From a virus: a stretch of DNA of 64,000 bases. Of this stretch, positions 22,001-61,013 are shown piece after piece. A program made the translations under genes and the position numbers. The notes beneath the pieces were generated by a model that ran no database searches, was not told where the DNA came from, and saw only the letters and a list, made by a program, of their open reading frames with translations. Position 1 is the first letter of the stretch; each line of letters begins with the position of its first letter. The stretch lies in IMG/VR virus record IMGVR_UViG_3300027963_000048, positions 1 to 64,000 of that record; one strand, 5' to 3'.

Positions 22001-22235
22001 GATGGAAGAAGACGAAGATGAAGAAGAAGATGAGGGCGTAGCTGAAGACAACGACATCACCAGTCCCGCTCATAACAGCTACAAGGGTCTACTGAATCAA
22101 GATCCTCGACAAGACGTTGAAGTGAAAATGCCACATAAAAACAAGGGCGATCAAGAAGAAGGATTTGGTGGCACCAGGTCCTTGAAGAAGATCGACAAAA
22201 AGGGTAACACTCCTAATGTCAAATTCGAGGAATAA
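19011..22235 (+). CDS. Very large acidic prohead-core-like protein
   Basis: A 1074-residue protein between portal and prohead protease, where T4 encodes its small acidic core proteins gp67 and gp68. I know no homologue of this size. The first 400 residues are helical and charged and look folded. Residues about 420-560 are Ala/Pro/Gln-rich. Two strongly acidic repeat blocks follow, at about residues 700-765 (15-residue E-E-S-T-I-D-S-E units) and 963-1010 (E/D/G/M units), separated by a folded-looking stretch. Its place and acidity suggest a core or internal head component that may be cut by the protease. The start ATG 19011 follows GAGGGATTTAAA; an ATG at 18960 is less likely. Confidence 0.6.
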   Translation: MSVKKSEPVKIDSRKFLSIINDSAQSKIAFFEDRVKEIGKSLSKDYRLAALQPSDLVFEDVNSNEYFIANHSKNNGRIEISNIRPVEIYDNEKKQLYFESCLKLVNAIEENDQKEMGNAFSRMKAQRFSSRIIPEHGYVVGRDGISRKVNVVEGATIAAKVKRQIVEAVVDSLRDKVVVENNTVVSAYFNDGEPVNLPVTKWAGRKLIAKNMRETAKDAYLSPGFQNRIAKIAKQITEGKVAGAVSFIKPFLLENEEFTLLTKKELHKLVESTLATKAVFNQQLCEDVATLVYRTNLKVNRDTILNEWMRIGKFCEHPTLIENVHKLEESRKFEASYDCFLQMLFEAISNREVAAEALATTLDSLKTRTPRISESNDLSSKLASLVSRLRSKNVDDNAINEAEDLIATIQEELSAQDTLQDYDSMPGAQEAQGAQEPAAPPAPQAPVITINSPLISIGGQPVGQAGGDQDLAGLGLDDMGAEAAIPDLGAAPAAGAPPATDDFEMPPASPQAAPAAQPAQAPAQAGQAPARPGMPRSQPRQPGLPESRNRFGSALNESRPVHPEMQATGKRKPKRGGDHPEQLAEDRYFYADDVSIEGLNAYGNQTIPEDRVALVSNYMKGIKEGSEAHRLVKACRKAGVMVSESDIGSAIEQVHDYDHSTESDSKNADHDVMAEIDAIHHEIDSMHDRIDSIEDDSDEVDSEVGGLEDDESMMDSEVGGFEDEESMIDSEESEDEESTIDSEIEELEDEESTIDSEIEELEDDNDDELPEPEEGMAESQFKFPTAKKKRGMKSYAPRDNKRGPVAEGAIKWLRKQSDAVLGEARGVKFILDHGNHDPDFLPALLSEDGEIQIPMPKQLHEDAYALADRNQVSHRLHQYILRNVTVLRPISESEDTEINQTVAEIQRNADGGLSINVTDPSITVHNSGSEMAPVDGVAAELPAPDEATDDSMPDFGGNELDELEEEGEDEEMEEDEEEGEDEDEEMEEDEEEGEDEEMEEDEDEEEDEGVAEDNDITSPAHNSYKGLLNQDPRQDVEVKMPHKNKGDQEEGFGGTRSLKKIDKKGNTPNVKFEE
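21105..21306 (+). repeat. Direct repeats encoding 15-residue acidic units
   Basis: Degenerate tandem units of about 45 bases encode E-D-E-E-S-x-x-D-S-E-x-x-E-L type peptides, five or so copies. The last two (EESTIDSEIEELED) are almost identical in DNA as well, pointing to recent duplication or gene conversion. Confidence 0.75.
21896..22040 (+). repeat. Acidic E/D/G/M repeat block
   Basis: Purine-rich (GAA, GAG, GAC, GGC, ATG) DNA repeats encode units such as EEGEDEEMEEDE three times with small length differences, near the end of the acidic core-like protein. Confidence 0.75.
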
Positions 22236-22239
22236 TCCA

Positions 22240-22965
22240 ATGCAGAGTAGAACGACGGTGAGAAGCGTGGCTTTGAACCGCCGACTAATCGCTGAGACCG
22301 GCGCTATCCCTGCCGGTCTTCGGTTAATCCGCGATACAATGCCATTTGAACCACTCGATACAAAAATGACCGTGAACGAAGACGCTCATGGTCGAGAAGT
22401 CCATGTGATGCGAGTCAAGGGCCTCTTTCAAATGGGCGATCTTAGCAATGCTAACGGTCGTTATTACTCCACTAGAGAAGTGCTAGTACCAGCGGTACAG
22501 AGCATCCAAGAAGATGTCTCCGGCCGAGCGGTGATGGGAGAATTTGATCACCCAGCTGACGCAAAAATCCATCTAAATAATGTTAGCCATCTCATCACTA
22601 ACATTTGGATGGAAGGCCAAAAAGTTTACGGTGAAGCTGAAATTCTACACCGTTTACCAATGGGCGCCTGCTTACGTGGTCTATTCGAGCACAAAGTACG
22701 TGTCGGCATCAGCAGCCGCGGCGTCGGCGATATGGAGATGATCGAATCGGGTGGACAGCAACTCTATCGAGTTATGCCTGGATACACCTTCGTAACTTGG
22801 GATGCCGTCGCTGAGCCTTCTGTCTCTGGAGCCATTCTACATAACATACAGGAAGGCCTTTATAAAAAGGTCAACGCTGTCAAAAAGATGAAACCGCAAT
22901 TGCGACCAGAGACTTACCAAAAGACCTTGGTTGAAGAAATAAACAAGTATTTTGGCATTAAGTAA
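22240..22965 (+). CDS. Prohead core protease (gp21-like)
   Basis: The assembly protease that matures the T4-type prohead by cutting core and capsid proteins, typically after (I/L)-x-E. The 241-residue protein has the family core: VMGEFDHPAD supplies the catalytic His region, SHLITNIWMEGQKVYGEAEI is the conserved strand pair, and VGISSRGVGD contains the nucleophilic Ser. The start at ATG 22240 has GAGGAAT eight bases upstream; an earlier ATG at 22216 lies inside the previous gene. Potential substrates in this window carry I-L-E or similar sites (capsid protein, the MKLxLILEA family). Confidence 0.9.
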   Translation: MQSRTTVRSVALNRRLIAETGAIPAGLRLIRDTMPFEPLDTKMTVNEDAHGREVHVMRVKGLFQMGDLSNANGRYYSTREVLVPAVQSIQEDVSGRAVMGEFDHPADAKIHLNNVSHLITNIWMEGQKVYGEAEILHRLPMGACLRGLFEHKVRVGISSRGVGDMEMIESGGQQLYRVMPGYTFVTWDAVAEPSVSGAILHNIQEGLYKKVNAVKKMKPQLRPETYQKTLVEEINKYFGIK

Positions 22966-28333: not shown

Positions 28334-29908
28334 ATGTTAGCACGTGGTAAGCATATCATCAGCGGTAATAACTCCATCTCGGAGGCCGTTGACGTTCATA
28401 AGGCCGCAATCATTCATGAGTCAAAGAAGAATGAATGCGTAAAGAAATGGGCACCTGTTCTCGGCAAATGCCGTGAAGTGCCTAAGCAAAAATTCGCCCT
28501 CATGGCATCGATCTTAGAAAACCAGTTCAACGCCTGGAATCCTAAGAATCGCAGCGTGATCCTCGAAAACCAGACCACTACCGCTGATATCGCGGATTTC
28601 ACCCGTTTCGCTCTCCCACTCATCCGCAAGAGCTACCCAAAGCTTATCGCTGATAACCTCGTTGGCGTTCAGCCAATGAGCCAACCAGCAAGCTTGATTT
28701 TCTACATCCGCTATCGTTACGCAATGACCAAGGGTCAAACCGTTGCCGGTACGCAGATCATGCGTCAAAACACCGCTCAAGCTTACAGCCGCCAAAACGG
28801 CTGGGCGCTTGACCCCTACTACTCTTCGCAAGAAGTGCGTCACGAGTCCCTCACCATCAGTGGCAGTCACACCGTAGTGAGCGGCACCCTTGCCCAACGT
28901 CCCGTGCTCTCCGGCACCGTAGTGGTAGAGGTGTTCCCCAACGAAGCAGACGCTGCTCCCGATTGCAACGACGCAACTCCCTGCCTCAGGGTTTCTTTCG
29001 ATAGCACAGGCTCACCTGACGTCATCCTGATCGGCGACTGCACGGGCTTCACCAGCACTATCGCCGTAAACACCGCTACCCCAGGCGCCACGGCTTTCAA
29101 CAGCACCACCGGTGCAGTTACCGTGACCTTGCGCGCAGGCTCGTTCCCAGTTGGCGCCGTAGCGTACGTTAACTACGAGTATGATCTCGAAGCTAACCCT
29201 TTCCAACCAGAAGTGACCTTAAGCATCGACAGTGACAGCGTTGCAGCTATCACCCGTAAGCTTAAAACCTCTTGGTCTTTGGAAGCCGCTCAGGATCTTA
29301 AGGCAGTTCACAACATCGATGCCGAATCGACCCTCACCGACCTCATGGCCGATGAAATGGTCGCCGAAATCGACCGTGAAATCATCAACGACCTCATCGT
29401 TGCCGCTTCCATCCGTGCGACACACAACTTTGCGACCGCTGCTGGTGCTAGCGTTAACTACACCGACCGCAACATCGCTTTGATGTACAAGACGCTCGAA
29501 GTGGCTAACATCATCCACCGGACCACCCTCCGTGGCCCTGCCAACTGGTTGGTGATGTCTTCTGACATCGCTTCCAAGTTCGAGCAGCTTAACGACTTCC
29601 GTGCGAGCGATGCGCTCACCACCGAAGGTGTTGACATCGGCATCATGAACATTGGTACCATCCAAGGCAAGATGCGCCTCTACAAGGACCCCCTCTTCCC
29701 CAACTGTAAGATCCTCCTCGGGTTCAAGGGATCGAGCGTTCTCGATGCGGGCTATTTCTACGCGCCTTACATTCCGCTTCTCTCCACCCCAACCGTTCTC
29801 GACCCCAACAGCTTCACACCTAACAAGGGCATCATGACCCGTTACGGTAAGAAGCTGATCGAAGACGGCGGCCTCTACTACGGTACCATCAACGTCACCA
29901 ATCTCTAA
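28334..29908 (+). CDS. Major capsid protein (gp23-like)
   Basis: A 524-residue shell protein of the T4 gp23 type. Characteristic parts are PLIRKSYPKLIADNLVGVQPM and SLIFYIRYRYA near residues 97-130. TRKLKTSWSLEAAQDLKAVHNID, with EIDREIINDLI, follows around residue 310, and a GFKGSSVLDAGYFYAPYIPL stretch lies near the end. The N-terminus holds two (I/L)-x-E sites (E62 and E78) where the prohead protease could remove the leader, as in T4 (E65). Residues 190-290 form an extra strand-rich, Thr-rich insertion. Codon use is strikingly C-rich at third positions compared with neighbours, as expected for the most expressed gene. AGGAG precedes ATG 28334. Confidence 0.95.
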   Translation: MLARGKHIISGNNSISEAVDVHKAAIIHESKKNECVKKWAPVLGKCREVPKQKFALMASILENQFNAWNPKNRSVILENQTTTADIADFTRFALPLIRKSYPKLIADNLVGVQPMSQPASLIFYIRYRYAMTKGQTVAGTQIMRQNTAQAYSRQNGWALDPYYSSQEVRHESLTISGSHTVVSGTLAQRPVLSGTVVVEVFPNEADAAPDCNDATPCLRVSFDSTGSPDVILIGDCTGFTSTIAVNTATPGATAFNSTTGAVTVTLRAGSFPVGAVAYVNYEYDLEANPFQPEVTLSIDSDSVAAITRKLKTSWSLEAAQDLKAVHNIDAESTLTDLMADEMVAEIDREIINDLIVAASIRATHNFATAAGASVNYTDRNIALMYKTLEVANIIHRTTLRGPANWLVMSSDIASKFEQLNDFRASDALTTEGVDIGIMNIGTIQGKMRLYKDPLFPNCKILLGFKGSSVLDAGYFYAPYIPLLSTPTVLDPNSFTPNKGIMTRYGKKLIEDGGLYYGTINVTNL

Positions 29909-30042: not shown

Positions 30043-30672
30043 ATGAAACTGTCTATTATTTTAGAGGCCAGACTTAATAAATTATGGCTAGACAAGCAAT
30101 CGGGTAAAGGCAATCCGATAATCGACAGAATCATAGCGGTTGATCCTACTGGGGGTGAATATTATTTGTGGTGATGCGCTATAGCTAAAGATAGATTAGC
30201 ACAAAAGCCACATGTTGCTGAAGCTATAGCGAGTTACGTAGCAGAGTACCCACAAATACCATGGACATTCTTAGATGAAGAAGGCGAAACAAGAACTCGA
30301 TGAATATCTGACCAGTACGGCAAGAAGTTAATCCGGCAGAGCAATCATACGGCTATTGCTATGTATTAATGGTTTATTGATAAGCAAGGAAATGACGATT
30401 TACTTAAAGCCATGAATGAAACAGAATTTTATATCGCAAAGAGATTAATTAAGCCAATTATCAAGTCTTTATTGCCTACGGGATGGAAACACCGCTTTAG
30501 TAAGAGATATCTAACGTTGATTTTATATCCTAATCCAGAAGCTTGGAATATTATCATTGAACTTGCATACTTAGACTATTCAACTACTGATAGTGTTATT
30601 AATCATCTAAAAGGTACGATAGACTATGAGGTAGCTTATCTTGCTAGGCGACTTGCGGACGACAGCGAGTGA
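30043..30672 (+). pseudogene. Degenerate fourth copy of the MKLxLILEA family
   Basis: The frame starts MKLSIILEARLNKLWLDKQSGKG and continues DPTGGEYYLW, clearly the N-terminus shared by the genes at 50496, 52186 and 53771. It then meets TGA at 30172 where the live copies have Leu (YYxWL). TGA at 30301 and TAA at 30367 follow in the same frame, and the frame stays open to 30672. The last 86 codons (from ATG 30412) could still be translated, but no ribosome binding site is obvious. The rest of the genome uses TGA and TAA as ordinary stops, so this is a decayed gene rather than a recoded one. Confidence 0.75.
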
Positions 30673-30724: not shown

Positions 30725-31426
30725 ATGAGACTTAAAGACATTTGTGAAAGTGGTTTATCGAGGACACACAGCGGCATGACACAGCATGATTGCGCAATAA
30801 TAACAGCACACAGACAAAACCCGTGCGATTTAACTGCTTGCGCAGCTGACGTTACAGCTGTTGAGAAACTTAAGCAGCGCAATATCGATACGATTATGCA
30901 TAATAAAAGCGGAGAAATAGCTATAAACGATAGGTATGAATTTATCAAAAATTATGGCGGACTTTATAGCGAAATCAATAAAGTCAATAATAGAGATCTT
31001 AAGGCAGTTTTGCGGCAACACGGATGTGGCGTCACTGAGGTTGATGGATCATTTACCGAAAACTTCGGTACATCCAAAGCAGTCGATGTTAGAGAAGATA
31101 GCATGTTCGTGGTAAATCTTAAAGATGACCCAGATTTCAAAAATCTGATTATACAGTTAGGCAAAGAATATTGTCAAGATTCTGTGTTGTTAATTGATAA
31201 AGGCACAGATAAAGCATATTTGTACGGCACTAATAAAAGCGGTGAATTTCCTAAGCTTGACCAAGAGATGTACGTTGGCTCATGGCTTGGCGGTCATGGT
31301 GGGCAGTTCCACACTAGAGTGGATGGGCGACCCTTTGTTTTCCGAGAAGAGAATTTATCGCGCAATGCTGCATGGTGTGTCTCTCTTATTATTGATTACA
31401 GGAAGAAAAATAATCTAGCATATTGA
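30725..31426 (+). CDS. Conserved-type hypothetical protein, possibly DUF3293-like
   Basis: A 233-residue protein. The order LSRTHSGMTQHDCAIITAHR, then LKAVLRQHGCGVTEVDG, then DVREDSMFVVNLKDD and GKEYCQDSVLLID recalls a widespread phage and plasmid family. In that family a 'Q-D-S-V' segment follows an 'E-x-S-F-x-V' strand. No enzymatic motif is clear. It begins with a MRLKDI sequence somewhat like the MKL leaders of other proteins here, but lacks the I-x-E site. ATG 30725 is preceded by AGGTG. Function unknown. Confidence 0.6.
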   Translation: MRLKDICESGLSRTHSGMTQHDCAIITAHRQNPCDLTACAADVTAVEKLKQRNIDTIMHNKSGEIAINDRYEFIKNYGGLYSEINKVNNRDLKAVLRQHGCGVTEVDGSFTENFGTSKAVDVREDSMFVVNLKDDPDFKNLIIQLGKEYCQDSVLLIDKGTDKAYLYGTNKSGEFPKLDQEMYVGSWLGGHGGQFHTRVDGRPFVFREENLSRNAAWCVSLIIDYRKKNNLAY

Positions 31427-45835: not shown

Positions 45836-46145
45836 GTTTACTCGGAGATTGGCGGTTAGCAGAGGCACGCACAAGGTCTCTGCTACCGAAGAAAACATCA
45901 AGGTCAAAATAAGACGAGCACTACTAACTGACCCTTTAGAACATGAACCCGTAAGTCCCTTCTCGAAAGGCCTGAAAGGCCATCAATTCATCGGTGAATT
46001 TAGTTTCAATGGAGTGCCCGCTCACGGGTTCGTGTTAAGGATATACGAACAGGGCCGGATGATCTTTAAGAGGGTCGTGCCACCTTCAGGCATTATTGGC
46101 GCTTTACCGTTAAAATCTAACCATTCCTATGTCATTACCCTCTAA
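45828..46145 (+). CDS. Small hypothetical protein, TTG start
   Basis: A 105-residue basic protein beginning at TTG 45828 within the last codons of the fibre-like gene. It has a short strand-rich domain (GHQFIGEFSFNGVPAHGFVLRIYE). Possibly a fibre-associated or decoration protein; no family recognised. It overlaps the convergent gene by 11 bases. The non-ATG start lowers confidence. Confidence 0.45.
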   Translation: MAKFTRRLAVSRGTHKVSATEENIKVKIRRALLTDPLEHEPVSPFSKGLKGHQFIGEFSFNGVPAHGFVLRIYEQGRMIFKRVVPPSGIIGALPLKSNHSYVITL

Positions 46146-47949
46146 TGAAATTACGCAGCAGCTTACTTTCAGCGAGGACACTCATTGTAATGCGGGTGTC
46201 GATTGAACGCAAGAGCTTATCTAATGATTCTACAATGATCGCACGGTCGATCGCATCCCATTCGTTAAAGAAATTGTAAGCGCTCTGCTGCTGTTGCAAT
46301 GCCTTTTCTTGCTCTGTTTTGGCCTTGCGTTTCGTGCCGCCTTCGGACGCTTCGTTACGCAAGATCAAAGCGACGGCTTTTAATTTTCCAAGTACCTCGT
46401 TGTATCTGTCTCGGCTCAGTTTATTGCTGTAAGTTAGCTTGCCTGGTGGTGCTACTTTTCCTTCTTTAGCCAGTTCTGTTAATTCTTCCTCTTCCGTCTC
46501 GAAACTGCGACGGATGCCATCAAGTGATAAGACTGGCATTCCGCTACGCAGCCAAGGCGATTTGTATGGTGGGCCTTCTTTGCTTGGTTCTAACTCAGGG
46601 TCTTCCGTCCCAGCGACGTACCAGCCCGGATTACCACGTGGTATTTGGATATTAGATCTTTCTGTGCCTTTGCCAGGGTAACTAGCAGCGGCTTCACCTA
46701 AGATCCGGAGGAGCATCCGGTATTCGGTCTCCTTCACCTTGGTGGTGTCGTAGGTCGATTGACCGCCAGTCGGTAGGCCAAGCTCAGTAAGTTTAGCTAG
46801 ATATGGCGTGTCTTTTATCATGTCTGCGTAGCCGTACAGCATTAACTCTATCATGTCGCTGATCATACCAGGATCTAAGCGATCAGCTTCTTGAGTCATA
46901 CGGTCTGGAACCGACCCTGCGGCTGAGGTGACACCACCTTCGGGGCCTTCCTTGGGCTTATCGAGGCTGGTCGTTTTAATCTGGGTTACGCGGTCCGGCG
47001 TGTCGATTGTACTAAGCATACCGGTGGAAGCACCCTTAGATGACGCCTGATTAAAGAAGTCAATGCGTTCTTGTAGTGCTATTATCCCCTGCAGTGCCTT
47101 TTTGGTAGCTTCCTCGTCTCCTGAGGATGCTATAGCGGCAAACTCTTTACAGGCTTTGACGATGTCGGTGCTGTACCAGCCAAATGGGTTATCTATGTTT
47201 TTGTCACTGCGCGATTCAACGTCGAATGGGGGCTTGACTTGTGCTGCTACCTTTAGCGCTTGCTCTGCGGTAGGATTGTCAATGATCGATTGCAGGCCCT
47301 TTATTCCATATAAAGGGTGGTTTTTGTGTAGTTGCGATGACTTTCCTGATGCAGCCATAGTCTCGGCTGTGCCGCCTAAGCCGTTAAGCATTGCGTGCTT
47401 TACGTCTACCATGAGCCGTTTGATGAATGGTGGTTCGCCTCTGTCTACACCTGGCCGAATCATTTGACTTAGAGCTGTTAGGCCAAGCGAATAATAGTCT
47501 TCCCAAGACCCAGAACGGCTTCCTTTGCCAGCTAGCTTTTTCGCTATGCGATAAACTGGCGCCGATCCGTATGAGCCAGGATTGCGTGGTGATCGTCCCT
47601 TTTCGGTATCACTACGTGTCTGCCCAGTGATAGCTACGGTGGGGTCTCCCGCTACCGCGATGATGAATTGCTCAGGCGTGAATTGCGGCGCTGGCCCGCC
47701 GGGAGCAAAGTCCGGCGGTGGGGTAAAATTCTTGCTGCGCCATTCTTTTGTATAATGCGCCTTGCTATCGAGCGGATTGATCGTATTATGCAATATGTCT
47801 TCTGCATAGCCACGATTATAACCAGCTGCGTAGGGATCTATCCAAGGCGCAGTCTTACTGTCTGCTTCAGAAAGGATCAGCTTAAATGCTGCAGCGCTTT
47901 CAGCTATCAGCCGAGCCAAAGATGCCGATAAAGAAGATTTAAAATCCAT
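46135..47949 (-). CDS. Large hypothetical protein, possible virion component
   Basis: A 604-residue protein. The N-terminus MDFKSSLSASLARLIAESAAAF includes an I-A-E site that the prohead protease could cut. The region around residues 150-195 (GSWEDYYSLGLTALSQMI, then PPFIKRLMVDVKHAMLNGL) loosely resembles the helical region 2 of sigma factors, but no region 4 follows, so I do not call it one. Long Lys/Glu/Gln stretches near the C-terminus look helical. I do not recognise a family. The gene lies alone on the minus strand next to a glycosyltransferase. Confidence 0.55.
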   Translation of the reverse strand: MDFKSSLSASLARLIAESAAAFKLILSEADSKTAPWIDPYAAGYNRGYAEDILHNTINPLDSKAHYTKEWRSKNFTPPPDFAPGGPAPQFTPEQFIIAVAGDPTVAITGQTRSDTEKGRSPRNPGSYGSAPVYRIAKKLAGKGSRSGSWEDYYSLGLTALSQMIRPGVDRGEPPFIKRLMVDVKHAMLNGLGGTAETMAASGKSSQLHKNHPLYGIKGLQSIIDNPTAEQALKVAAQVKPPFDVESRSDKNIDNPFGWYSTDIVKACKEFAAIASSGDEEATKKALQGIIALQERIDFFNQASSKGASTGMLSTIDTPDRVTQIKTTSLDKPKEGPEGGVTSAAGSVPDRMTQEADRLDPGMISDMIELMLYGYADMIKDTPYLAKLTELGLPTGGQSTYDTTKVKETEYRMLLRILGEAAASYPGKGTERSNIQIPRGNPGWYVAGTEDPELEPSKEGPPYKSPWLRSGMPVLSLDGIRRSFETEEEELTELAKEGKVAPPGKLTYSNKLSRDRYNEVLGKLKAVALILRNEASEGGTKRKAKTEQEKALQQQQSAYNFFNEWDAIDRAIIVESLDKLLRSIDTRITMSVLAESKLLRNFIRG

Positions 47950-48800: not shown

Positions 48801-48845
48801 AAGCCACCTCCTTTTCTAAATGTATGTACTAACGAAATATAAATT

Positions 48846-49109
48846 ATGAAACTAAATCGGATAATAGAAGACAGTAACTTCAATTCAGTCCAACCGGCTG
48901 GAGTAAATTCATGGGCTGGGGCCAAGATGGCACAAGATATCATGGATCCAGAATTACACACGCCCGATAACGAACCCACAGACGTTAACCTATCATCACC
49001 GGGTGCAGAAGAGACTGATCTACTCACTACCAGCATTGATGATACAGAAAAAGCGATGGATACCTTCTCATGGATGATCCCAACCTTCAAGGATCCAACG
49101 GTAAAATGA
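48846..49109 (+). CDS. Small acidic protein with capsid-targeting-like N-terminus
   Basis: An 87-residue acidic protein starting MKLNRIIEDSNFN. The N-terminal MKLxxIxE pattern, with an (I/L)-x-E site after residue 8, matches that of the large paralogues downstream. The rest is acidic, low in structure and holds helical ends (DDTEKAMDTFSWMIPTF). The ATG directly follows an AT-rich TATAAATT and lacks a clear ribosome binding site. It ends with an ATGA overlap into the next gene. I infer an internal head component; unproved. Confidence 0.5.
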   Translation: MKLNRIIEDSNFNSVQPAGVNSWAGAKMAQDIMDPELHTPDNEPTDVNLSSPGAEETDLLTTSIDDTEKAMDTFSWMIPTFKDPTVK

Positions 49110-49639
49110 CATTCTCAGACACACTTGACCTCCTGATGGTCGACCCGAAGCAAGTTGAACGCAATAGCGTCCTGCAAGACTGCATCCACACTTCGAAAGA
49201 ATTAGAAAAAACGCGCTACAAATTGATGAATCTAGAACATAAGCTCAAGACACTGCACCATAAACTAAATTGCGAGTTAGCTATGCAATTTAGGAAGGAA
49301 TACCCTAATTTAAATATTAATATTCATAGAAACAATTGCAAAGTAGGCTATAAAAGCAAGCATCTTCTACTAAAACCAGACTTCAAGAAGCAATTTTGGA
49401 GCGTCGACAGTGCCGATTCAGCGTTCGCTAACAGATTCAAGCGAGACGCAAGGGCTGTCTTACTGCTGAGTACACCATTGACCGAATTAATAGCCAAAAT
49501 AGCTGAATTTTTCCGTCTAGCCTATAAAAGCTTAGGCGAAGACATAACTGATCATGACGGAGTGTTGATTATCGAAGGTAAATCAGCCAATTTGATGCAA
49601 CTTGTCCAATTTTCGAGGAGCGCCGATGTTATCTCTTAA
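49106..49639 (+). CDS. Hypothetical coiled-coil protein
   Basis: A 177-residue protein beginning with an ATGA overlap at 49106 (an earlier ATG at 49070 is possible). Residues about 20-65 form a helical, coiled-coil-like stretch (HTSKELEKTRYKLMNLEHKL), followed by a mixed domain. No family recognised. The gene overlaps the following one by 14 bases. Confidence 0.5.
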   Translation: MTFSDTLDLLMVDPKQVERNSVLQDCIHTSKELEKTRYKLMNLEHKLKTLHHKLNCELAMQFRKEYPNLNINIHRNNCKVGYKSKHLLLKPDFKKQFWSVDSADSAFANRFKRDARAVLLLSTPLTELIAKIAEFFRLAYKSLGEDITDHDGVLIIEGKSANLMQLVQFSRSADVIS

Positions 49640-50489
49640 GAGCATAGTCTCAGTTATTAAGGCAGCGATTGGAAACCAGGCCTCCTACATGCCAGTTTAT
49701 GAAGATACTAACATGTTAAGCTTCGTCGTAGCTGGTAACCAGAAAGACCTGCTACCTGCGATATCAACCGTAAGAGCCAAATGCGAGGCATGGGGCTTGC
49801 ATTGTGAGGACGCCAGAGTCAGAGGTGGGCGAGTTTGCATGATTAGTCACCGAGCCCTTTCCGAGCACGAAACCGCCATCATCGGTTCCTTGCTTGGTGA
49901 GCAGATAAACTTAGGCACCTTTGAAAACAGACTCGACAGGGCGCTCCAAGAAGATCAATTCAAATCAGCGACGTCTGGTATTACCAGAGCGAACCAGTCA
50001 AGTCGTCAGCGGCAGTACTACGACCCGAAAAGGGCAACGTACGCCGGTAAAAGAACACTACCTACAAGAAGAACTGCCGTATCAGAGAGTATACATGGCA
50101 TAGCGACAGCTACCGGCGAACAGCCTAAAGCTCTATTCCAGAAATTCGGAGTCGCATTGAGAAGCCTTGGTAACAATTTAGGGATAGGTGCAATACAAGA
50201 CATCCTAAAATCCAAAGGTATCCAATATAAAAAATCTAATGACGGATTAAGTCTAATATTCACAGTAAAGAACGCACAGACTGGAACTGATATACCAATC
50301 CACCGCATCACATGTGAGACGCTCGAAAGTCCGAACGACTTCCAAGAATCGTTATTGGCTCTTCTAGATATAGCAAGAGGTGATGCACCAGGGTCATTTC
50401 AGGCTAAGCAAGCACAAATGCAAGATATTCAGAAATCAGCCAGAGAGATCTCTACGGCGGTGGCTAGTCCTAACCCTCTGCAACAGTAG
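49626..50489 (+). CDS. Hypothetical basic protein
   Basis: A 287-residue protein with GAGGAG eight bases before ATG 49626. The first 100 residues look like a small alpha-beta domain. Residues 110-145 are Arg/Ser/Gln-rich and probably disordered. The end is helical. It lies in one tight run of plus-strand genes leading into the MKLxLILEA paralogues. Unrecognised. Confidence 0.5.
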   Translation: MLSLKSIVSVIKAAIGNQASYMPVYEDTNMLSFVVAGNQKDLLPAISTVRAKCEAWGLHCEDARVRGGRVCMISHRALSEHETAIIGSLLGEQINLGTFENRLDRALQEDQFKSATSGITRANQSSRQRQYYDPKRATYAGKRTLPTRRTAVSESIHGIATATGEQPKALFQKFGVALRSLGNNLGIGAIQDILKSKGIQYKKSNDGLSLIFTVKNAQTGTDIPIHRITCETLESPNDFQESLLALLDIARGDAPGSFQAKQAQMQDIQKSAREISTAVASPNPLQQ

Positions 50490-50495
50490 ACTCAC

Positions 50496-52172
50496 ATGAA
50501 ACTTGCACTTATTCTAGAGGCGAAGCTTAACCGCCCTTGGCTCGAAAAACAGCTCGGTAAAGATAATCCAGCTGTTCAAAAAATCGTGAACACTGATCCA
50601 ACCGAAGGTTCATATTACCAATGGTTGGCATCTTTGTACAAGAAGCGCGGATCAGATGACTTCTTAACTCGGGAATTACGCGCAGACATCGACGAATGGG
50701 ATCGCAATAAACAAGCATTGAAAAATCTTGAAATCAGCAGTGACTTAAACGGCAAGGACTTGACGTACTTGGCGGACAATCTAGAATCATTAAGGTACGA
50801 TAGGGCTTTGAGAGCGTCTACAGGCTTAGGCAGCGGTGTCTATCACCTCAGTAAAGATTATCCAGGCGCTAAAATATTACTGAATGACGGACAGTATATT
50901 CTGTTCGAGATAGCGGGCAAAGACGCAGCTTCGATTGATAGTCTTGAGCGACTTGGGATGGGCACGTCTTGGTGTACTAGAAAAGGCAGTAATATCAGTG
51001 GGGCTGCGCAGCGATATCTAAAATCACGCACGCAGTATGTTCTATATAGGGATAAAAAACCTCTATATCAATTCGATGATAAAGACTTCATGAATGCTAG
51101 AAATGAAAATGTTATCCCTGAGCGTGATGCCGCTTCGAAGATCCTTGATGCCATGGGATATGCGTGTAATGAAGCATTGATGGTGGCTCAGATAGCCTAT
51201 GGCGATCCGAAATCTGTCAATATGACGCAAGACATGGTCAATAAGTACAAGCAAGGTGTATACCGTTTCGATGGAGTTACCGGTTTTCAACGCATTCCAG
51301 CGTTGGAAGCGTTTATCAAGTCAGACATGCACGAATACATCTTGTACGCCACCCAAATTCTAAAAAGGCGCGTGCCGGAAATCGAGGAATGGTTCATTAA
51401 TAATAACAATAAGTTTAGATCCCATACACAGCGCTACTTTACTGACCACTTGACTAACTACCTGTTATCATGCTGCAAATTTGAGGAATGGCCGGAGGGT
51501 GAAGAACTGCTGAAGGAGAATTTGGCTGCATATACACGTTATTTTGTGCAACGCCGCACTCAACCCAACGTGTTAATAGAACGTTCGCCTGAATTGGAAA
51601 AATGGCTGTTAGCCGCCGTTAATTTGGTACCCGTGGATTTTGTAGAAGATGGCAATCTAAATCTGATATTAAATTACCTATGGGACCTCAAAGTTGGAGA
51701 ATGGCCGGAAGGTGAGAAAAGACTCCTTAACAGTGCTAGCTTAGAGGGTTTACGGTATGCTATACACGTACACAAACGTTCCATAGCCGTAGAGAATTGG
51801 CTGGCGGCAGAGTGCTCAATCTTCCATGTCAAGGATTACGTAGCCCATGTGACGGATGGTAAACCGATTCCAGATTTCGAAGATAAAGCCATAGCGGCTA
51901 TGAAGTCCTCTTTAGCAACTAAGCCGCGTGATGGACAGTATCCGTATCCGGAACCTGTTTTCGCAGCGAGGTACGCACTTGAGGTATTAAAGCGACGGTG
52001 GCCTGCTGCTGAAAATATAATCTCGCTTGGTCGGCCTAACCATCCAGACATTGAAGCGTATTTTAAAGAATTCAATTATGCCATGGGTCATCAAGGCTTA
52101 ACTAACCAACCGTCAGGACGTACAGGAATGCCCGGCCAAAAGCCATGGGCTCTGTACAGCGAATCAAAGTAG
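50496..52172 (+). CDS. MKLxLILEA-family protein A, candidate internal head protein
   Basis: A 558-residue member of a three-gene tandem family. It starts MKLALILEAKLNRPWLEKQLG, with an (I/L)-x-E site after Glu 8, then the shared DPTxGxYYxWL segment. A domain at about residues 120-205 holds the conserved GTSWCTRKG, QYVLYRDKKPLYQFD block. The remainder has degenerate WP-E-x-E repeats (EWPEGEELL, EWPEGEKRL, RWPAAENII). The N-terminus resembles T4 capsid-targeting peptides removed by the prohead protease. Such proteins are packaged with DNA and enter the host. The WCT domain could be the effector. Both roles are inference. Confidence 0.6.
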   Translation: MKLALILEAKLNRPWLEKQLGKDNPAVQKIVNTDPTEGSYYQWLASLYKKRGSDDFLTRELRADIDEWDRNKQALKNLEISSDLNGKDLTYLADNLESLRYDRALRASTGLGSGVYHLSKDYPGAKILLNDGQYILFEIAGKDAASIDSLERLGMGTSWCTRKGSNISGAAQRYLKSRTQYVLYRDKKPLYQFDDKDFMNARNENVIPERDAASKILDAMGYACNEALMVAQIAYGDPKSVNMTQDMVNKYKQGVYRFDGVTGFQRIPALEAFIKSDMHEYILYATQILKRRVPEIEEWFINNNNKFRSHTQRYFTDHLTNYLLSCCKFEEWPEGEELLKENLAAYTRYFVQRRTQPNVLIERSPELEKWLLAAVNLVPVDFVEDGNLNLILNYLWDLKVGEWPEGEKRLLNSASLEGLRYAIHVHKRSIAVENWLAAECSIFHVKDYVAHVTDGKPIPDFEDKAIAAMKSSLATKPRDGQYPYPEPVFAARYALEVLKRRWPAAENIISLGRPNHPDIEAYFKEFNYAMGHQGLTNQPSGRTGMPGQKPWALYSESK

Positions 52173-52185
52173 GCACGGAGATCAC

Positions 52186-53649
52186 ATGAAACTATCACTC
52201 ATACTAGAGGCTAAACTTAATCGCCCCTGGCTCGAAAAACAGCTCGGTATAGATAATCCAGCTGTTCAAAAAATCGTAGACACCGACCCAACTGGCGGAT
52301 CTTATTACAAATGGTTAACTGCGCTTTATCAAAAGTCGCAATCCGATGATTTTCTCACGCCCGAATTAAAAGCCGACATCGGAGAATGGGCCAATAACGC
52401 AAGAGCTATCAAAAGTGCAGGATTAAGCTCAGACTTGAACGGTAAAGATCTCGCATACTTCTATGACGTGCTAGCAAAAATGCGGCAGTATAAAGCCATT
52501 AAAGCCTCACACACTAAAAATAGTGGGGCCTATTATTTATTCAATAATTATCCAGGGGCCGAAGCTATTTATAATGACGGCAATTATATCATGTTTAAAG
52601 TCGAAGGCAAGAACGAAGAATCGATAGACAGCTTGCAGAAACTCGGAATCGGAACCGGATGGTGCACCAGGCTAGGCGGCGATGTGGAGGGTGCCGCTGA
52701 AGAATACTTATCTGATACGCAATATGTGTTGTATAAAAATGGTGAGCCTATCTGTCAATTCAGTAGACAAGACTTTAAAGATGTGCGTGATGAAGAATAC
52801 AAGCCACCTGCTGATGTGTTACGATTAATACTTAAAGTGGTCGGCCCAATTAATGATCAATTAAAGACGCTAGAGATAGGACAAAGGATAGCTGAATCAA
52901 ACAACTTCGCCGATGCATCACCCGAAGACCTGTGTCGCTATGCTGTGGCCATGAAACAGCGGTGGCCAGAAGCTGAGCCAATCATTAAAACATCACCAAA
53001 GTGGGCCCGAGAATACGCATTAAACGTCTTAGGGGAAACGTGGCCTGACGCCGAACCGTATATCATGACAGACCCTCAGTCTGCCGTGGTTTATGCTATA
53101 CATCTAAAGGGTCGATGGCCGGAAGCTGAAAAATATATCAAGCAAGATCCCGGATATGCTATACTATACGCTAGAAAATTATTTAATAAAGGCGAACGAT
53201 TTCTTGAAGCCGAGCCGTATATCGAAAAGGACGCTCGCATGGCGTTCGAATACGCCCAAAGAATCATAAAAGGTGAATGGCCAGACGCAGAAAAGTATAT
53301 CATGCAGGATCCTCAGGTGGCCTACAATTATGCTGCTTACGTGAGGGAAGACCGCTGGCCAGCAGCTGAACCCATCATAATGCGAGATCCTCAGGTAGCA
53401 TACAAGTATGCTTATGCTTTCATAAATGGTGAATGGCCAGAGGCGGAACCATACATAATGACTGAACCATATACAGCATATGCTTACGCTAGGTTTCTAA
53501 AAAGGGAGCGATGGCCAGAGGCCGAACCGTACATCAAGAAGAATCCCGAGGCCGCTAAACTTTATTTTGATTGGGTTAATAAGGATATCAGCAGAGGTGC
53601 GGACGCCTATGATGACTCGTCGAGTTGGGTTGATGCACGAAATATATAA
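52186..53649 (+). CDS. MKLxLILEA-family protein B with eight WPEAEP repeats
   Basis: A 487-residue paralogue: leader MKLSLILEAKLNRPWLEKQLG, the shared YYKWL segment, then the WCT domain (GTGWCTRLGG, QYVLYKNGEPICQFS). From about residue 258 to 466 there are eight tandem 26-residue repeats of the form x-RWPEAEPYIMxDPxxAYxYAxxV. These look like two-helix units of a solenoid, with a repeated Trp-Pro turn and Tyr-Ala packing. The 5' DNA is almost identical to that of copy A, indicating recent duplication or conversion. Solenoids of this type usually bind protein or peptide; the ligand is unknown. Confidence 0.65.
   Translation: MKLSLILEAKLNRPWLEKQLGIDNPAVQKIVDTDPTGGSYYKWLTALYQKSQSDDFLTPELKADIGEWANNARAIKSAGLSSDLNGKDLAYFYDVLAKMRQYKAIKASHTKNSGAYYLFNNYPGAEAIYNDGNYIMFKVEGKNEESIDSLQKLGIGTGWCTRLGGDVEGAAEEYLSDTQYVLYKNGEPICQFSRQDFKDVRDEEYKPPADVLRLILKVVGPINDQLKTLEIGQRIAESNNFADASPEDLCRYAVAMKQRWPEAEPIIKTSPKWAREYALNVLGETWPDAEPYIMTDPQSAVVYAIHLKGRWPEAEKYIKQDPGYAILYARKLFNKGERFLEAEPYIEKDARMAFEYAQRIIKGEWPDAEKYIMQDPQVAYNYAAYVREDRWPAAEPIIMRDPQVAYKYAYAFINGEWPEAEPYIMTEPYTAYAYARFLKRERWPEAEPYIKKNPEAAKLYFDWVNKDISRGADAYDDSSSWVDARNI
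52957..53583 (+). repeat. Eight 26-residue WPEAEP-type repeats
   Basis: Eight consecutive units (lengths 26, 25, 27, 27, 26, 26, 26 and 26 codons) each carry W-P-E-A-E-P/K-x-I, D/N/S-P and Y-A landmarks. Unit 4 has lost Trp-Pro (RFLEAEP). Similar but more worn units are in the neighbouring paralogues. Confidence 0.85.
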
Positions 53650-53691
53650 GCGCTAGAGAAAGCCAAACAATATAGAGCCATCAAAGCCTAA
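53650..53691 (+). pseudogene. Relic fragment of the same family
   Basis: Immediately after the stop of copy B the DNA reads in frame ALEKAKQYRAIKA then a stop. This matches the internal segment 'LEKIREHKAIKAS' or 'LAKMRQYKAIKAS' of the intact paralogues. It looks like a leftover of another copy removed by recombination. The following 80 bases before copy C show no further clear similarity. Confidence 0.55.
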
Positions 53692-53770
53692 ACCACCACG
53701 GCCACTAGCCGCTTCCTGCGCTCATATCATAGCAAATTTAACATGTACCCAATTTACAGGTATTCATAAA

Positions 53771-55177
53771 ATGAAGTTATCACTTATCCTAGAGGCGAAG
53801 CTTAATCATACTTGGCTCGAAAAACAGCTCGGTAAAGATCACCCAGCAGTGCAAAAAATCGTAGACACGGATCCGACCGGTGGCTTTTATTATGAATGGT
53901 TGGTGCAAAGATTTAAACAAGCGAACACAGACCAATTTCTAACACCGCAATTGCGAGATTCAATCGTCGAATGGGATAGAAACAAGCAAGTGCTGCGTAA
54001 TCTAAATATCGATGCTGACTTAAATGGTAAAAATTTAGCTTATTTTAATGATGCTTTAGAAAAGATCCGAGAACATAAGGCCATTAAAGCATCATCAGTG
54101 CGCGGTTCAGGCGTGACGCACATGGGCACGGAGTACCCAGGCGCAAAGGTCATATATGATGATGGTCAGTATGTTCTCTTTAAAATCGAAGGTACGAGCC
54201 CAGAGGCAATCGACAGCTTAGAGCGATTGGGAGTGGGTACTCGTTGGTGCACGAGAAGAGGCGGTAGAGTTAATAAGGCAGCTGAACATTTAAGCACAGA
54301 CACACAGTATGTGCTTTACAAAGATAAAAAGCCATTATATCAATTCGACTCTAGTGAATTTAAGGACACTCACAATCTTCCCGAATATAGCATACCAGAC
54401 AAAGCGTCAGCGCTCATAATGTTAGACTATGTGGGACCTATCAACGATACTCTAAAATTCGCCGCTGCAGTTTACGAATACGATACCTCAATGCTGTCTG
54501 AAGTGCCTGAAATTCTTGCTCGTTACCTGAGTGGAAACTTACCGACTTTCATTCAACCATCTGAAGTGATTGAGCAGTATCTATTACAACAATGCGAAAA
54601 TGGCGAGGACGAAGAGGCAGCTTACCATCTCATCGATTATGCAAAACACTACAGAGTAGGCCGTTGGCCAGCGGCAGAGCCGTATTTGATACATGATCCT
54701 AAAACGGCATATGCTTACGCTGATAGAGTCATCGGTGGTCGATGGCTCGAAGCTGAATCTATCATTGCCAAAAGCGCTACTGCCGTTAGCTACGCCATTG
54801 CCTTCTTCGGGGGTGACAGATGGCTTGAAGCCGAACCATATCTGCTTAACGAAGGTGAGGTAATACATGCCATACTCTATGCTGGTAAAGTATTAGAAGG
54901 GCGCTGGCCAGCTCTAGAGCATCGTATCGCAAAAATGGATCAGCCGCTGTTTGCCATGATGGAATACACAAGGTTGGTACTCAATCGCCTTCCAAATGGC
55001 CCAAAGTCGCTGCCTGAATTTGAGCAAGCTGTGATCAACGATCCTTACAAAGCATATAATTATGCTAGGCGTGTTATTAACGCAAGGTGGCCAGAAGCAG
55101 AACCTATAATTATGGCGTCGAAATATGCAAATGATTACCAACACTGGCTAACAGCCAAAGAGGCGCTACCGTTTTAA
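53771..55177 (+). CDS. MKLxLILEA-family protein C, candidate internal head protein
   Basis: A 468-residue third paralogue, with leader MKLSLILEAKLNHTWLEKQLG, shared DPTGGFYYEWL, and a WCT domain (GTRWCTRRGG, QYVLYKDKKPLYQFD). About six worn repeats follow (GRWPAAEPYLIHDP, GRWLEAESII, DRWLEAEPYL, GRWPALEHRI, ARWPEAEPIIM). The repeat section is less regular than in copy B, with inserts such as LPNGPKSLPEFEQ. The gap of 120 bases before it contains a relic of another copy. A glycosyltransferase gene follows after 44 bases. Confidence 0.6.
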   Translation: MKLSLILEAKLNHTWLEKQLGKDHPAVQKIVDTDPTGGFYYEWLVQRFKQANTDQFLTPQLRDSIVEWDRNKQVLRNLNIDADLNGKNLAYFNDALEKIREHKAIKASSVRGSGVTHMGTEYPGAKVIYDDGQYVLFKIEGTSPEAIDSLERLGVGTRWCTRRGGRVNKAAEHLSTDTQYVLYKDKKPLYQFDSSEFKDTHNLPEYSIPDKASALIMLDYVGPINDTLKFAAAVYEYDTSMLSEVPEILARYLSGNLPTFIQPSEVIEQYLLQQCENGEDEEAAYHLIDYAKHYRVGRWPAAEPYLIHDPKTAYAYADRVIGGRWLEAESIIAKSATAVSYAIAFFGGDRWLEAEPYLLNEGEVIHAILYAGKVLEGRWPALEHRIAKMDQPLFAMMEYTRLVLNRLPNGPKSLPEFEQAVINDPYKAYNYARRVINARWPEAEPIIMASKYANDYQHWLTAKEALPF

Positions 55178-55221
55178 TAGTCGATCAATAAATAAAGCAC
55201 ACGCTACTGCAGGATTTGATT

Positions 55222-56484
55222 ATGACTGATGCCGCAATTACCGTTATCCTTAACGGCTATAAACGACCACACGTGTTAGCCGAGCAGTTGCAAGCTATCG
55301 AAAGTCAGACAATCAAGCCCGTTCAAATTATGTTTTGGAAAAATGCCAGCGACGCCACCTTTGACCAAGACCTAATTGCCAGATGTCAATCATTTACCAG
55401 TAGCGTAAATGTGGGTGTATGGGGACGATTTGCGTTAGCCCTGCTAGCGGAAGGCGAATACGTTTGCGTCTTCGATGACGACACAGTTCCGGCCCCAAGA
55501 TGGCTCGAAAACTGCGTGACCTCGATGAAAAAACGAAGGGGGCTCTTCGGTACCATCGGTGTCGTTTTCGACACAGACCAAGGCTACGATGGACAAATCA
55601 GGCGCTTCGGCTGGGATACTCCCATTGACGATATTAAACAAGTAGACATAGTCGGTCACAGTTGGTTCTTTGAAAAGAAAATGCTAGAATATTTCTGGCG
55701 AGAAATCCCAGACCGTAAATTTTACCTATGCGGCGAAGACATGCACTTCTCATACATGCTGCAAAAATATGCGAACTTGCCTACTTTAGTCCCACCGCAT
55801 CCAGCTCAAGATCAATCACTCTACGGTTCAATTCCGGAAAAAGCGATGAAATATGGGATGGAGCCGGTCGCAATTTCACATGGCACCAATTGCAACGTTA
55901 AATTCAACGATTACCTGTTCAAGATACGAAGTGGAGGTTTCAAGCTGCTAAAAGATAATTACCAAAGACCATACTTAATAACACAATTTAAATTTATAGA
56001 TGTTTACGATGCTACGGTCTCAGATGGAGCGCCAGACTGGCGTACCCCATATGAATTGGGCCTTGCTTATAAATTCCTTGCTACGCTAGCACGCCTTAAT
56101 ACTACCATGTCAGTAAAGTATAATAGTGAGTCGATGTCGCTGGTAAACAAGCATCCGTTCCCACTGGATACTGAAAAACCAACCATTTACGTTGACGTGA
56201 AGGGAATAGATCTAAGCCAAGCGGACTGCATTGAGCGCTTGCGCAGTAAGATCGACCTGATTAATCACGGTGGTTACTATATTGGTTCAAGCCTTTTTAA
56301 CGGAGCTACGGAACATCCCGAAAATGGCCAGCACATCGATATGCTTAAACAGTTAGAAGCTATGGTTGGGGCACCGGTTGAAGGCAAGAATTCTATCATC
56401 AAGCTAAATGGGTCAAATAGCACAAATCCAGACACAAATCATATGTTAGATTCGATCTTGTTCCTCATTATAAAGAAGATCTAA
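55222..56484 (+). CDS. Glycosyltransferase family 2, two-domain
   Basis: A 420-residue enzyme. AITVILNGYKRPHVLAEQLQAIESQTIKPVQI is the standard GT2 start, and YVCVFDDDTVPAPRWLE holds a DDD metal motif at about residues 78-93. FYLCGEDMHFSYMLQKY is a clear acceptor-side 'GED' motif. The C-terminal 150 residues form an extra domain. ATG 55222 follows AGGAT. It overlaps the convergent wecB-like gene by 39 bases. Confidence 0.82.
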   Translation: MTDAAITVILNGYKRPHVLAEQLQAIESQTIKPVQIMFWKNASDATFDQDLIARCQSFTSSVNVGVWGRFALALLAEGEYVCVFDDDTVPAPRWLENCVTSMKKRRGLFGTIGVVFDTDQGYDGQIRRFGWDTPIDDIKQVDIVGHSWFFEKKMLEYFWREIPDRKFYLCGEDMHFSYMLQKYANLPTLVPPHPAQDQSLYGSIPEKAMKYGMEPVAISHGTNCNVKFNDYLFKIRSGGFKLLKDNYQRPYLITQFKFIDVYDATVSDGAPDWRTPYELGLAYKFLATLARLNTTMSVKYNSESMSLVNKHPFPLDTEKPTIYVDVKGIDLSQADCIERLRSKIDLINHGGYYIGSSLFNGATEHPENGQHIDMLKQLEAMVGAPVEGKNSIIKLNGSNSTNPDTNHMLDSILFLIIKKI

Positions 56485-57450
56485 CAGTTTACCGGCTGCG
56501 AAACCATCACCGTAAGGTGACGGTAACACAACGCGATACTGTAATTTAGCTGAAAATAATTCATGTAATTGGCGTGGACTAGGACACAAGAATGCATGAG
56601 TATCGATACCCTCTACGCGTTCCGTACTCGCACGACATACAATCGCTGTCTTCTTGAGAAATGAAGCCTCCTCCTGTATCCCACCAGAGTCGGTAATCAC
56701 CAGCTTGCATCTCGCCAGCAAAGCAAGGCAGTCGTCATGAGGCAAAGGGTCCACAGCGTGCACTTTTCTTAAGATGCTCACGTGCTTGGTTACACTAGGG
56801 TTATGATGCGCTGGTAATATGAATTTAAGCTCCGGGTAAGCTAAGGCTAGATTTTCGAAAGCCTTAAACCATGCTTCTATATGCTGCAAGTTCTCACGAC
56901 GATGCATGGTAATTAGCACTTCATCACCATAAGTGACGCTAAGATCCCTAAGATTATCGAGTGCCGTATTACCGATCACTGGTGCTAGAGCGTAAATCTT
57001 CTCATTACGTAGGTTGGTGGCAGCCCGTTGCGTAGGACAAAGATTGATCGTAGCTATTCGACTGATCATCTGCCTATATGCTTCTTCCGGATATGGACGC
57101 TTCAGATCGTACGTTCTAAGCCCAGCTTCTAGATGCAAAAGGATCTTGTTGCGATGAAACGCAGCCAGAGCGCAAGTTAATGCAGTAGCCGTATCGCCCT
57201 GCACAATCACATGGCTAATACCGTTGAAGATCTGGTCAGTCATAGCTCCAATTGAGCTAACTATTGCATCAAGTCTGTTATCAGCATACGATACTGAAAG
57301 CACGTGGTCAGCTGGTTCGGTCACCTCTAGATTATAGTGTTGGCCAATATATAATGTCCTGTAGGAAATGCTACGGGCTTTGCATTCCTTGATGATCGGT
57401 TTAAGCTTAATATATTCAGGTCTGGTGCCGTAGCATAGTAAAATCGGCAT
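56446..57450 (-). CDS. wecB: UDP-N-acetylglucosamine 2-epimerase (WecB-like)
   Basis: Converts UDP-GlcNAc to UDP-ManNAc. All landmarks are seen: GTRPEYIKL near the start, VQGDTATALTCALAA, HLEAGLRTYD, then PEEAYRQMISRIA, ITMHRRENL and ITDSGGIQEEASFL with STERVEGI close behind. The length of 334 residues is a little shorter than the 376 of E. coli WecB, trimmed mainly at the C-terminus. It lies directly behind a UDP-sugar dehydrogenase gene (one base between), so together they may make UDP-ManNAcA. The minus-strand order places the dehydrogenase first. Confidence 0.9.
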   Translation of the reverse strand: MPILLCYGTRPEYIKLKPIIKECKARSISYRTLYIGQHYNLEVTEPADHVLSVSYADNRLDAIVSSIGAMTDQIFNGISHVIVQGDTATALTCALAAFHRNKILLHLEAGLRTYDLKRPYPEEAYRQMISRIATINLCPTQRAATNLRNEKIYALAPVIGNTALDNLRDLSVTYGDEVLITMHRRENLQHIEAWFKAFENLALAYPELKFILPAHHNPSVTKHVSILRKVHAVDPLPHDDCLALLARCKLVITDSGGIQEEASFLKKTAIVCRASTERVEGIDTHAFLCPSPRQLHELFSAKLQYRVVLPSPYGDGFAAGKLLDLLYNEEQDRI

Positions 57451-57451
57451 G

Positions 57452-58522: not shown

Positions 58523-58533
58523 AGCCAGCCTCA

Positions 58534-60625: not shown

Positions 60626-61013
60626 GTTCCAGGATGTAATACTTCTGTTTAAAGCCAGCCTTTAGGAACAGCTGAAGACTAGCCTCGTTATCAACCTTCA
60701 CCTTTGCGTAAAGTCCTTTGCGATTTTTTAGGTATTCGTTGATCATGAACGACGCTATGCCTTTGTTCTTGTGCTCGTGCACAACGCAAACCCTCAGGTC
60801 GCCATCTATGTCCCCCACGAAACCAACAGGCTCATCAGCATCTGTGACACAAATCTTGTAATCTTGATGATGATCCATCATATATGCTGTCTGCTGGTCT
60901 GGAGTAATTTGGACTTGCTGTATAAACCCTTGGGCATTGCGTGGATCGTTCCTTAAGCTTCGGACGAAACCCCAATAATCAAGAGAGCAATTCACCAGTT
61001 TATACTTTACCAT
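60609..61013 (-). CDS. GNAT N-acetyltransferase
   Basis: A 134-residue acetyl-CoA enzyme. DLRVCVVHEHKNKGIASFMINEYL contains the beta4 strand and the 'H-x-x-K-G-I-A' pyrophosphate loop, a variant of Q/R-x-x-G-x-G/A. LYAKVKVDNEASLQLFLKAGFKQ is the classic C-terminal N-x-x-A-x-x-x-F-x-x-x-GF motif. It sits next to the sugar aminotransferase and probably acetylates the amino group it makes. The start ATG at 61013 is best spaced from GAGGAAG; ATG 61019 is alternative. It overlaps the following gene. Confidence 0.82.
   Translation of the reverse strand: MVKYKLVNCSLDYWGFVRSLRNDPRNAQGFIQQVQITPDQQTAYMMDHHQDYKICVTDADEPVGFVGDIDGDLRVCVVHEHKNKGIASFMINEYLKNRKGLYAKVKVDNEASLQLFLKAGFKQKYYILERDDAR

Follow-up and report, generated by a model that had tools for sequence, protein, structure and literature searches.

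Genes and features of the locus

This report concerns a short N-terminal leader, MKLxxIxE, carried by three related and several unrelated genes of the phage in IMG/VR record IMGVR_UViG_3300027963_000048. The stretch of DNA analyzed, referred to hereafter as the window, comprises positions 1-64,000 of this 115,614-base record. As shown in Table 1, the window encodes a gp23-type major capsid protein and a gp21-type S77 protease; together with a portal protein (phrog_213, E 4.7e-69), these assign the phage to the T4 superfamily. The capsid protein matches 2,515 named phage records, every one at less than 60% identity. The original prediction had placed a gp21-like protease near 22240, and the open reading frame (ORF) at that position matches Peptidase_S77 above the cut-off.

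Four genes had been reported to begin MKLxxI-x-E with glutamate at residue 8, and all four do so, with M1, K2, L3, I6 and E8 invariant among them. Three are large tandem paralogues; across their first 230 residues, the other two are 56-57% identical to 53771. Each contains the YYxWL segment described for it and a WCT domain with the motif GxGTxWCTR, from which the WCT genes take the name used here. The fourth, the small acidic gene at 48846, has only the leader in common with them.

Table 1. Head genes and leader-bearing genes of the phage. Coordinates are those of the window; the last three rows lie beyond it and are given by their start in the record.
Feature	Coordinates	Strand	Details
gp21-type S77 prohead protease, predicted to cut the leader	22216..22965	+	PF03420 (Peptidase_S77), 65.6 bits against a cut-off of 27; phrog_207, E 1.6e-41
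gp23-type major capsid protein	28334..29908	+	PF07068, 270.9 bits
Decayed fourth WCT paralogue	30043..30198	+	leader MKLSIILE and N-terminal 43 codons, then in-frame stops
Predicted S-adenosylmethionine (SAM) lyase	30725..31426	+	leader MRLKDICE at 30725-30748; PF23780, 44.3 bits against a cut-off of 28, E 2.1e-11
Small acidic gene, 87 aa	48846..49109	+	leader MKLNRIIE at 48846-48869; predicted mature start DSNF; mature isoelectric point (pI) 4.1
WCT paralogue 1, 558 aa	50496..52172	+	leader MKLALILE at 50496-50519; WCT motif at about 50970-50978; just three repeat-like RWP.AE matches
WCT paralogue 2, 487 aa	52186..53649	+	leader MKLSLILE at 52186-52209; WCT motif at about 52660-52668; six RWPEAE-type matches, residues 259-447
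WCT paralogue 3, 468 aa	53771..55177	+	leader MKLSLILE at 53771-53794; WCT motif at about 54245-54253; five RWPEAE-type matches
Leader gene, 266 aa	66854	+	DNA-form leader
Leader gene, 143 aa	68807	+	DNA-form leader
Leader gene, 77 aa	114496	+	DNA-form leader

The leader is real and more widespread in this phage than first noted, since it also opens a decayed WCT copy at 30043, the predicted SAM lyase gene at 30725 and the genes at 66854, 68807 and 114496. The decayed copy is 52% identical to 50496 over residues 1-52 (E 1.1e-13). The listed ORF of the predicted SAM lyase starts at 30704, 21 bases before the ATG of the leader. When the pattern was searched in a DNA form, which also allows N, S, H or Q at residue 2 and F at residue 3, the window contained six matches compared to 0.22 expected, and none of 100 dinucleotide shuffles reached six. 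The whole record contained nine, all on the plus strand, compared to one for the reversed pattern. Among 171 greedy, non-overlapping ORFs of the record, seven have [KR]2, L3, I6 and E8; of the 1,680 possible placements of these residue classes within residues 2-9 only the actual one reaches seven, and the next two reach four. Because three of the seven ORFs are paralogues, five gene families are left (WCT, 30725, 66854, 68807 and 114496), or six with 48846, which the greedy set dropped where a longer antisense ORF overlaps it. Six independent gene families and the decayed WCT copy have the leader in common, and behind it the proteins are mostly unrelated.

The end of the leader recurs in the capsid protein. 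A candidate cleavage site in the latter, Ile76-Leu77-Glu78 (28559-28567), ends in (I/L)-x-E like the WCT leaders, and this end was present at the corresponding place in 10 of 10 aligned capsid proteins.

The products of 66854 and 68807 gave no match to named phages by tblastn. A likeness of the former to ADP-ribosyltransferases, seen by eye, was not supported by profile, PDB or pairwise comparisons, and a by-eye likeness of the latter to papain-like proteins was not supported by profile searches. Small basic leader proteins of three related phages (L112:1501(+), L130:110(+) and L133:2338(-), with L005:2854-3654(+) also in the list of loci) share a stretch recognized by eye, 'GHW/GYW..YPNS...GR.SFL..P.DR', which in the window phage forms the N-terminal part of the longer 66854 protein.

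The leader in related phages

To sample the capsid clade we used the records behind 24 of 80 capsid-protein loci, 72-100% identical to the capsid protein of the window, plus one further record (L009). The leader pattern occurred 49 times in 18 of these 25 records, compared to 5 times for a control pattern, although not all of the 49 matches are genuine (in G016 the leader is interrupted by a stop, and a match in G017 opens a frame of 15 residues) and G004 and G005 have genes in common. In 16 records reached mainly through WCT relatives, 17 matches were found compared to 7 for the control. The S77 protease was above cut-off in all 20 of the capsid-clade records tested.

The cargo behind the leader varies from gene to gene and from phage to phage. 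Among ten capsid-clade leader proteins scanned against Pfam, GNAT domains (L025, L115 and L127) and DUF5662 (L126) were above cut-off, and a phosphoribosyltransferase (L101) was at cut-off; ART-PolyVal (L119), PcfJ (L017) and RNase_T (L092) were below it, and nothing telling was found for L134 and L095. Neighbors of WCT genes often bear a local dialect of the leader, MRAx[DE]FxxE, which in 23 records gave 24 matches, a single 37-kb record contributing six, compared to 0 for the control. A second scan of ten proteins, eight with or near this leader plus two that carry twin-arginine translocation (Tat) signals, yielded GNAT, nucleotidyltransferase and GH19 domains above cut-off.

Upstream of the start codon, Shine-Dalgarno-like sequences were scarce: they preceded 10 of 57, 2 of 25 and 8 of 60 leader genes in three sets, compared to 294 of 558 control ORFs of the capsid-clade loci. 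The 5' end of these genes is therefore special at the DNA level too. An A-rich box with TA as its last two bases, located 3-6 bases upstream of the ATG (e.g. 48834-48845 and L005:2842-2853), preceded 20 of 57 capsid-clade leader genes compared to 16 of 558 control ORFs; this pattern was chosen post hoc, and as a general mark of leader genes it failed on two held-out sets from other groups (0 of 25 and 5 of 60).

The WCT family across phages

Neither 50496 nor 53771, the two WCT proteins compared by tblastn, matched a named phage. Relatives were first reached through G003 (pair E 8e-9) and G017, with three of 33 records matched. The G017 relative led to 13 named phage records, namely 11 of Pseudomonas phages (two of them PA5oct) and two of Caulobacter phage CcrBL9. 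A scan of viral contigs confirmed 264 relatives, from which 79 loci were kept and 51 non-redundant proteins were read from the first ATG.

An (L/I)-x-E ending at residues 7-20 was found in 46 of these 51 proteins, compared to 61 of 184 neighboring ORFs at these loci and 51 of 306 stretches from the interior of these proteins (Fisher P 8e-14 and 5e-25, respectively, not corrected for relatedness). The letters before it vary by phage, as in MRAREFLIE, MKLTEYILLE, MLSFRDYLLLLE, MKLIDLFE and MRLDLIFNGTILQE. That the letters vary while the end stays suggests that what is conserved is the cut and not the sequence. Five proteins lack the site: L155 and L167, from records of 494 and 334 kb with no S77 match; L198, in which a later ATG gives MKIREILVE; and L214 and L230. 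CcrBL9, which has no S77 match, was considered as a natural negative and dropped, since an Ile-Ala-Glu that ends at residue 20 is present in its WCT protein.

Searches of Pfam, PHROGs and PADLOC assigned the WCT domain of the window proteins to no family, and no Pfam family covered it in a search with 50 members. The window proteins did not match PHROG 28193 or PHROG 17056, both of unknown function, at E 0.001, whereas these families matched 45 and 43, respectively, of the 50 aligned members. Every row of the 50-row alignment has G156, W159, C160 and T161. Among the window proteins, PHROGs matched only the repeats of 52186 (phrog_11280, unknown function, E 2.1e-6).

Predicted structure of the WCT proteins

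A model of residues 1-235 of 53771, predicted from the 50-row alignment, had a mean predicted local distance difference test (pLDDT) score of 87.2. The leader block scored 62, compared to at least 91 for the remainder of the first 100 residues. The full 487-residue model of 52186 (pLDDT 86.4) contains helix pairs from about residue 209 to 450 that form an alpha-solenoid with the RWPEAE-type repeats. Solenoid matches to Integrator, AP-3, PUF and designed repeats had Z-scores of at most 8.2 and were set aside as a common arrangement, which is not telling for solenoids.

Profile and Foldseek searches had been proposed as a check on the WCT domain. They did find relatives across phages: matches among viral models included PA5oct gp279 (E 4.8e-6), the CcrBL9 protein (2.4e-4) and six proteins annotated as PcfJ (0.002-0.1), with TM-scores of at most 0.5. 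They yielded no Pfam family, however, and among solved structures Foldseek gave no match at E 0.001. The top 25 realigned PDB rows were acetyl- or acyltransferases, the best at Z 5.7 with a root-mean-square deviation of 3.7 over 94 residues (within residues 114-235), below the safe level of the tool. In the models, this likeness may be just a common arrangement.

The resemblance to PcfJ (PF14284) comes from Foldseek and from a weak profile match at the motif, which had a probability of 39% when the 50-row alignment was compared; against it, the window proteins have no PcfJ profile match, one of the 50 members matched at E 0.017, and a profile comparison of the three-row alignment with a PcfJ-like leader protein gave nothing. 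The WCT domain forms an unnamed family (PHROG 28193/17056), which is perhaps PcfJ-like.

PA5oct as an outside test

The WCT domain that the window proteins have in common with PHROG 28193/17056 is also found in gp279 of PA5oct, which by eye is without the RWPEAE repeats. PA5oct gp279 starts MKLFEVFTLYE-DK, and PA5oct encodes an S77 protease. In the RefSeq record gp279 is a 'structural protein' with an electrospray ionization tandem mass spectrometry note, a label that is known from the record annotation alone; such a mass spectrometry (MS) note stands on 93 of the 445 coding sequences. With a looser pattern, M[KR][LI].{2,8}[LI].E, 11 frames were found in PA5oct: seven at annotated starts, gp213 from an alternative start, and three that were dropped since they are not annotated starts. 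Five of the seven leader coding sequences (gp333, gp279, gp246, gp105 and gp104) have an MS note, compared to 93 of 445 overall (one-sided Fisher P 0.005, or 0.012 with gp213). Because the pattern was loosened after the MS proteins had been inspected, and the MS set likely includes carry-over, this test is support and not proof.

Tat signals behind leaders in other phages

A Tat-type signal directly follows the predicted cut in leader proteins at L248:895-1527(-), L261:2927-3871(-), L266:11357-11662(-), L135:2800(-), L137:793(+), L259:474-1241(-) and L265:2275(-). In one example MRATEFVTE is followed by MDRRGFLRGLAGAG in a protein with a GH19 domain, and in another MRFKEILE is followed by DMSRRGFLKGVAG in a protein with LysM and SLT domains. 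Positions 1-21 of the Pfam TAT_signal model align to residues 9-29, above cut-off in L248 and L261 and just below in L266. A scan of viral contigs gave 13 stretches, of which 8 were in frame and 5 of those distinct by eye.

Other genes of the window and related loci

Close to the N-terminus of a 604-aa protein at 46135-47949 (-), (L/I)-x-E occurs twice, with the glutamates at residues 17 and 28 (MDFKSSLSASLARLIAE and FKLILSE). The protein had no match in Pfam or PHROG searches and is possibly another head-core protein. A stand-alone C39 peptidase domain at 16409-16813 (-) (50.6 bits against a cut-off of 22) and a CAP-domain protein at L005:1302-1787(+) (64.2 bits against 21.1) are unusual in phages. 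The region adjoining the WCT cluster, 55216-62468, contains genes, mostly on the minus strand, that by eye resemble sugar-nucleotide and glycosyltransferase genes.

Discussion

In T4, as parts of one source describe (PMC9026906), gp21 cuts after L/I-X-E, and the N-terminal propeptides of mature virion proteins range from 7 residues (Alt) to 65 (gp23). Those of the internal proteins (IPs) are 10-19 residues long and direct these proteins to the core. For IPIII the first ten residues are enough, and proteins fused to IP propeptides are packaged and delivered. Given these precedents and the Ile-Leu-Glu78 end of the capsid protein, we read the leader as a capsid-targeting propeptide, as the original prediction had done. 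That reading has gained support from the unrelated cargo within one phage, the recurrence in related phages, the kept (L/I)-x-E end, the S77 protease in all capsid-clade records tested and the MS note on the PA5oct homologue. Most likely, then, the tag on three related and several unrelated genes directs their products to the virus head and is removed thereafter. More specifically, the leader is likely a modular, phage-specific propeptide like those of the T4 internal proteins. The S77 protease would remove it after Glu8, and the mature protein would be ejected along with the DNA.

By this mechanism the leader would deliver the newly made protein to the core of the prohead, cleavage after Glu8 by the S77 protease would follow, and the mature protein (starting AKLN..., or DSNF... 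for the small 48846 product) would stay with the DNA and be ejected into the next host. The leader would serve as a module before unrelated cargo, including the triplicated WCT proteins, the predicted SAM lyase and small proteins of unknown role. A packaged SAM lyase would act on SAM at DNA entry and so starve SAM-dependent restriction-modification enzymes. The sequences themselves show the leader, the protease, the diversity of the cargo and the (L/I)-x-E ends across the family. For the WCT proteins, packaging is predicted with the support of comparisons, whereas cutting, ejection and host action are inferences; the proteins are probably ejected along with the DNA. Tentatively, and with the odds somewhat against it, they may be early effectors in which the conserved alpha/beta WCT domain is active and the alpha-solenoid repeats read a target, the copies differing in target.

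Several observations weigh against the propeptide reading. The virion content of the window phage is predicted from its genes, and the putative role of the WCT proteins in the host is read from sequence and models. With a predicted mature mass of 53-63 kDa and pI of 5.0-6.9, the WCT proteins are unlike the small basic IPs of T4. The (L/I)-x-E motif is short and occurs at the N-terminus of a third of the neighboring ORFs; from the first ATG it is absent from the WCT proteins L214 and L230, whose records bear S77. While the S77 protease was above cut-off in 18 of 49 WCT records, 31 had no match, many of them fragments and several larger than 140 kb and with leaders. In PA5oct, the MS-noted set includes ribonucleotide reductase, UvsX, RIIB and FtsH, which are likely carry-over; just 16 of the 93 MS-noted proteins have a site near the N-terminus by the looser pattern; and the leader coding sequences gp158 and gp103 are without an MS note, as is gp213.

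An alternative is that the leader does target the prohead, but that the proteins serve in the core or in assembly within the head, as T4 gp67 and gp68 do, and are not host effectors. Parts of PMC9026906 describe T4 core proteins as cut by the same gp21 protease, and PA5oct gp333, a 73-aa leader protein with an MS note, is encoded between the portal and protease genes; yet SAM lyase, GNAT, nucleotidyltransferase and GH19 cargo is hard to square with scaffolding, and the cargo set changes from phage to phage. We regard this alternative as unlikely. Less probable still is that the N-terminal motif has a job apart from the capsid, in localization, stability or translation start. The scarcity of Shine-Dalgarno-like sequences would fit such a job, but the variation of the letters between phages while the (L/I)-x-E end is kept would not, and neither would the tie to the S77 protease and to the MS-noted proteins of PA5oct.

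The likeness could in principle be due to chance and recent duplication, MKLxxIxE being a common start. Indeed, the four genes first reported include three paralogues, and the decayed copy is another. Since no shuffle reached the observed count, unrelated proteins carry the leader and related records hold 49 matches compared to 5 for the control, we consider this explanation very improbable.

The system resembles the capsid-targeting sequences (CTSs) of T4 IPI-IPIII and Alt in that a short leader with an (L/I)-x-E end stands on unrelated proteins, and the phage encodes gp23 and a gp21-type protease. According to parts of PMC12373910, T4 Ip1-3 have only the leader in common and inhibit different type IV restriction enzymes; the predicted SAM lyase would be anti-restriction cargo as well. 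It differs in that the leader is 8 residues long with Glu8, compared to 10-19 (PMC9026906, in part), the mature WCT proteins are large and neutral to acidic, the cargo families are other ones, and packaging is here a prediction. The polyvalent proteins of Iyer et al. (2017), as parts of PMC5512222 present them, are likewise injected, host-directed enzymes that include ART and GNAT and occur in phage head contexts; they are large multidomain proteins, whereas here mostly single cargo domains follow a short leader.

It is already in print that a CTS may let T4-like phages acquire various proteins (PMC9026906, in part) and that ip genes of T-even phages were found through the leader (PMC12373910, in part). 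The original prediction knew of no description of the family in an injected-head role. Searches of the open-access literature (subscription papers were not covered) turned up no account of the leader family, no description of WCT proteins as part of the head and no mention of Tat signals after such leaders, although the PA5oct homologue had already been labelled a structural protein, without a head or injection role.

It is quite possible, if somewhat short of an even chance, that many T4-superfamily and jumbo phages run a general protein injection system, with group-specific and exchangeable propeptide dialects (such as MKLxxIxE, MRAxEFxxE and MKLxxLFE) that tag many unrelated enzymes and are read by their own core and S77 protease, and that in some of them the cut exposes a complete Tat signal. 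If so, a packaged cell-wall enzyme would reach the cytoplasm by ejection, and from there the new host's own Tat machinery would send it to the periplasm; injected repertoires could be readable from sequence alone. Injected phage proteins are usually identified phage by phage, through genetics and the mass spectrometry of virions. With a leader recognizable from its repeated use within one genome and from its (L/I)-x-E end, candidate injected effectors could be listed for testing in uncultured jumbo and T4-like phages, predicted anti-restriction and host-modifying enzymes among them. Such a leader also suggests a plausible role for the widespread unnamed family PHROG 28193/17056, with its 264 relatives in one scan of viral contigs.

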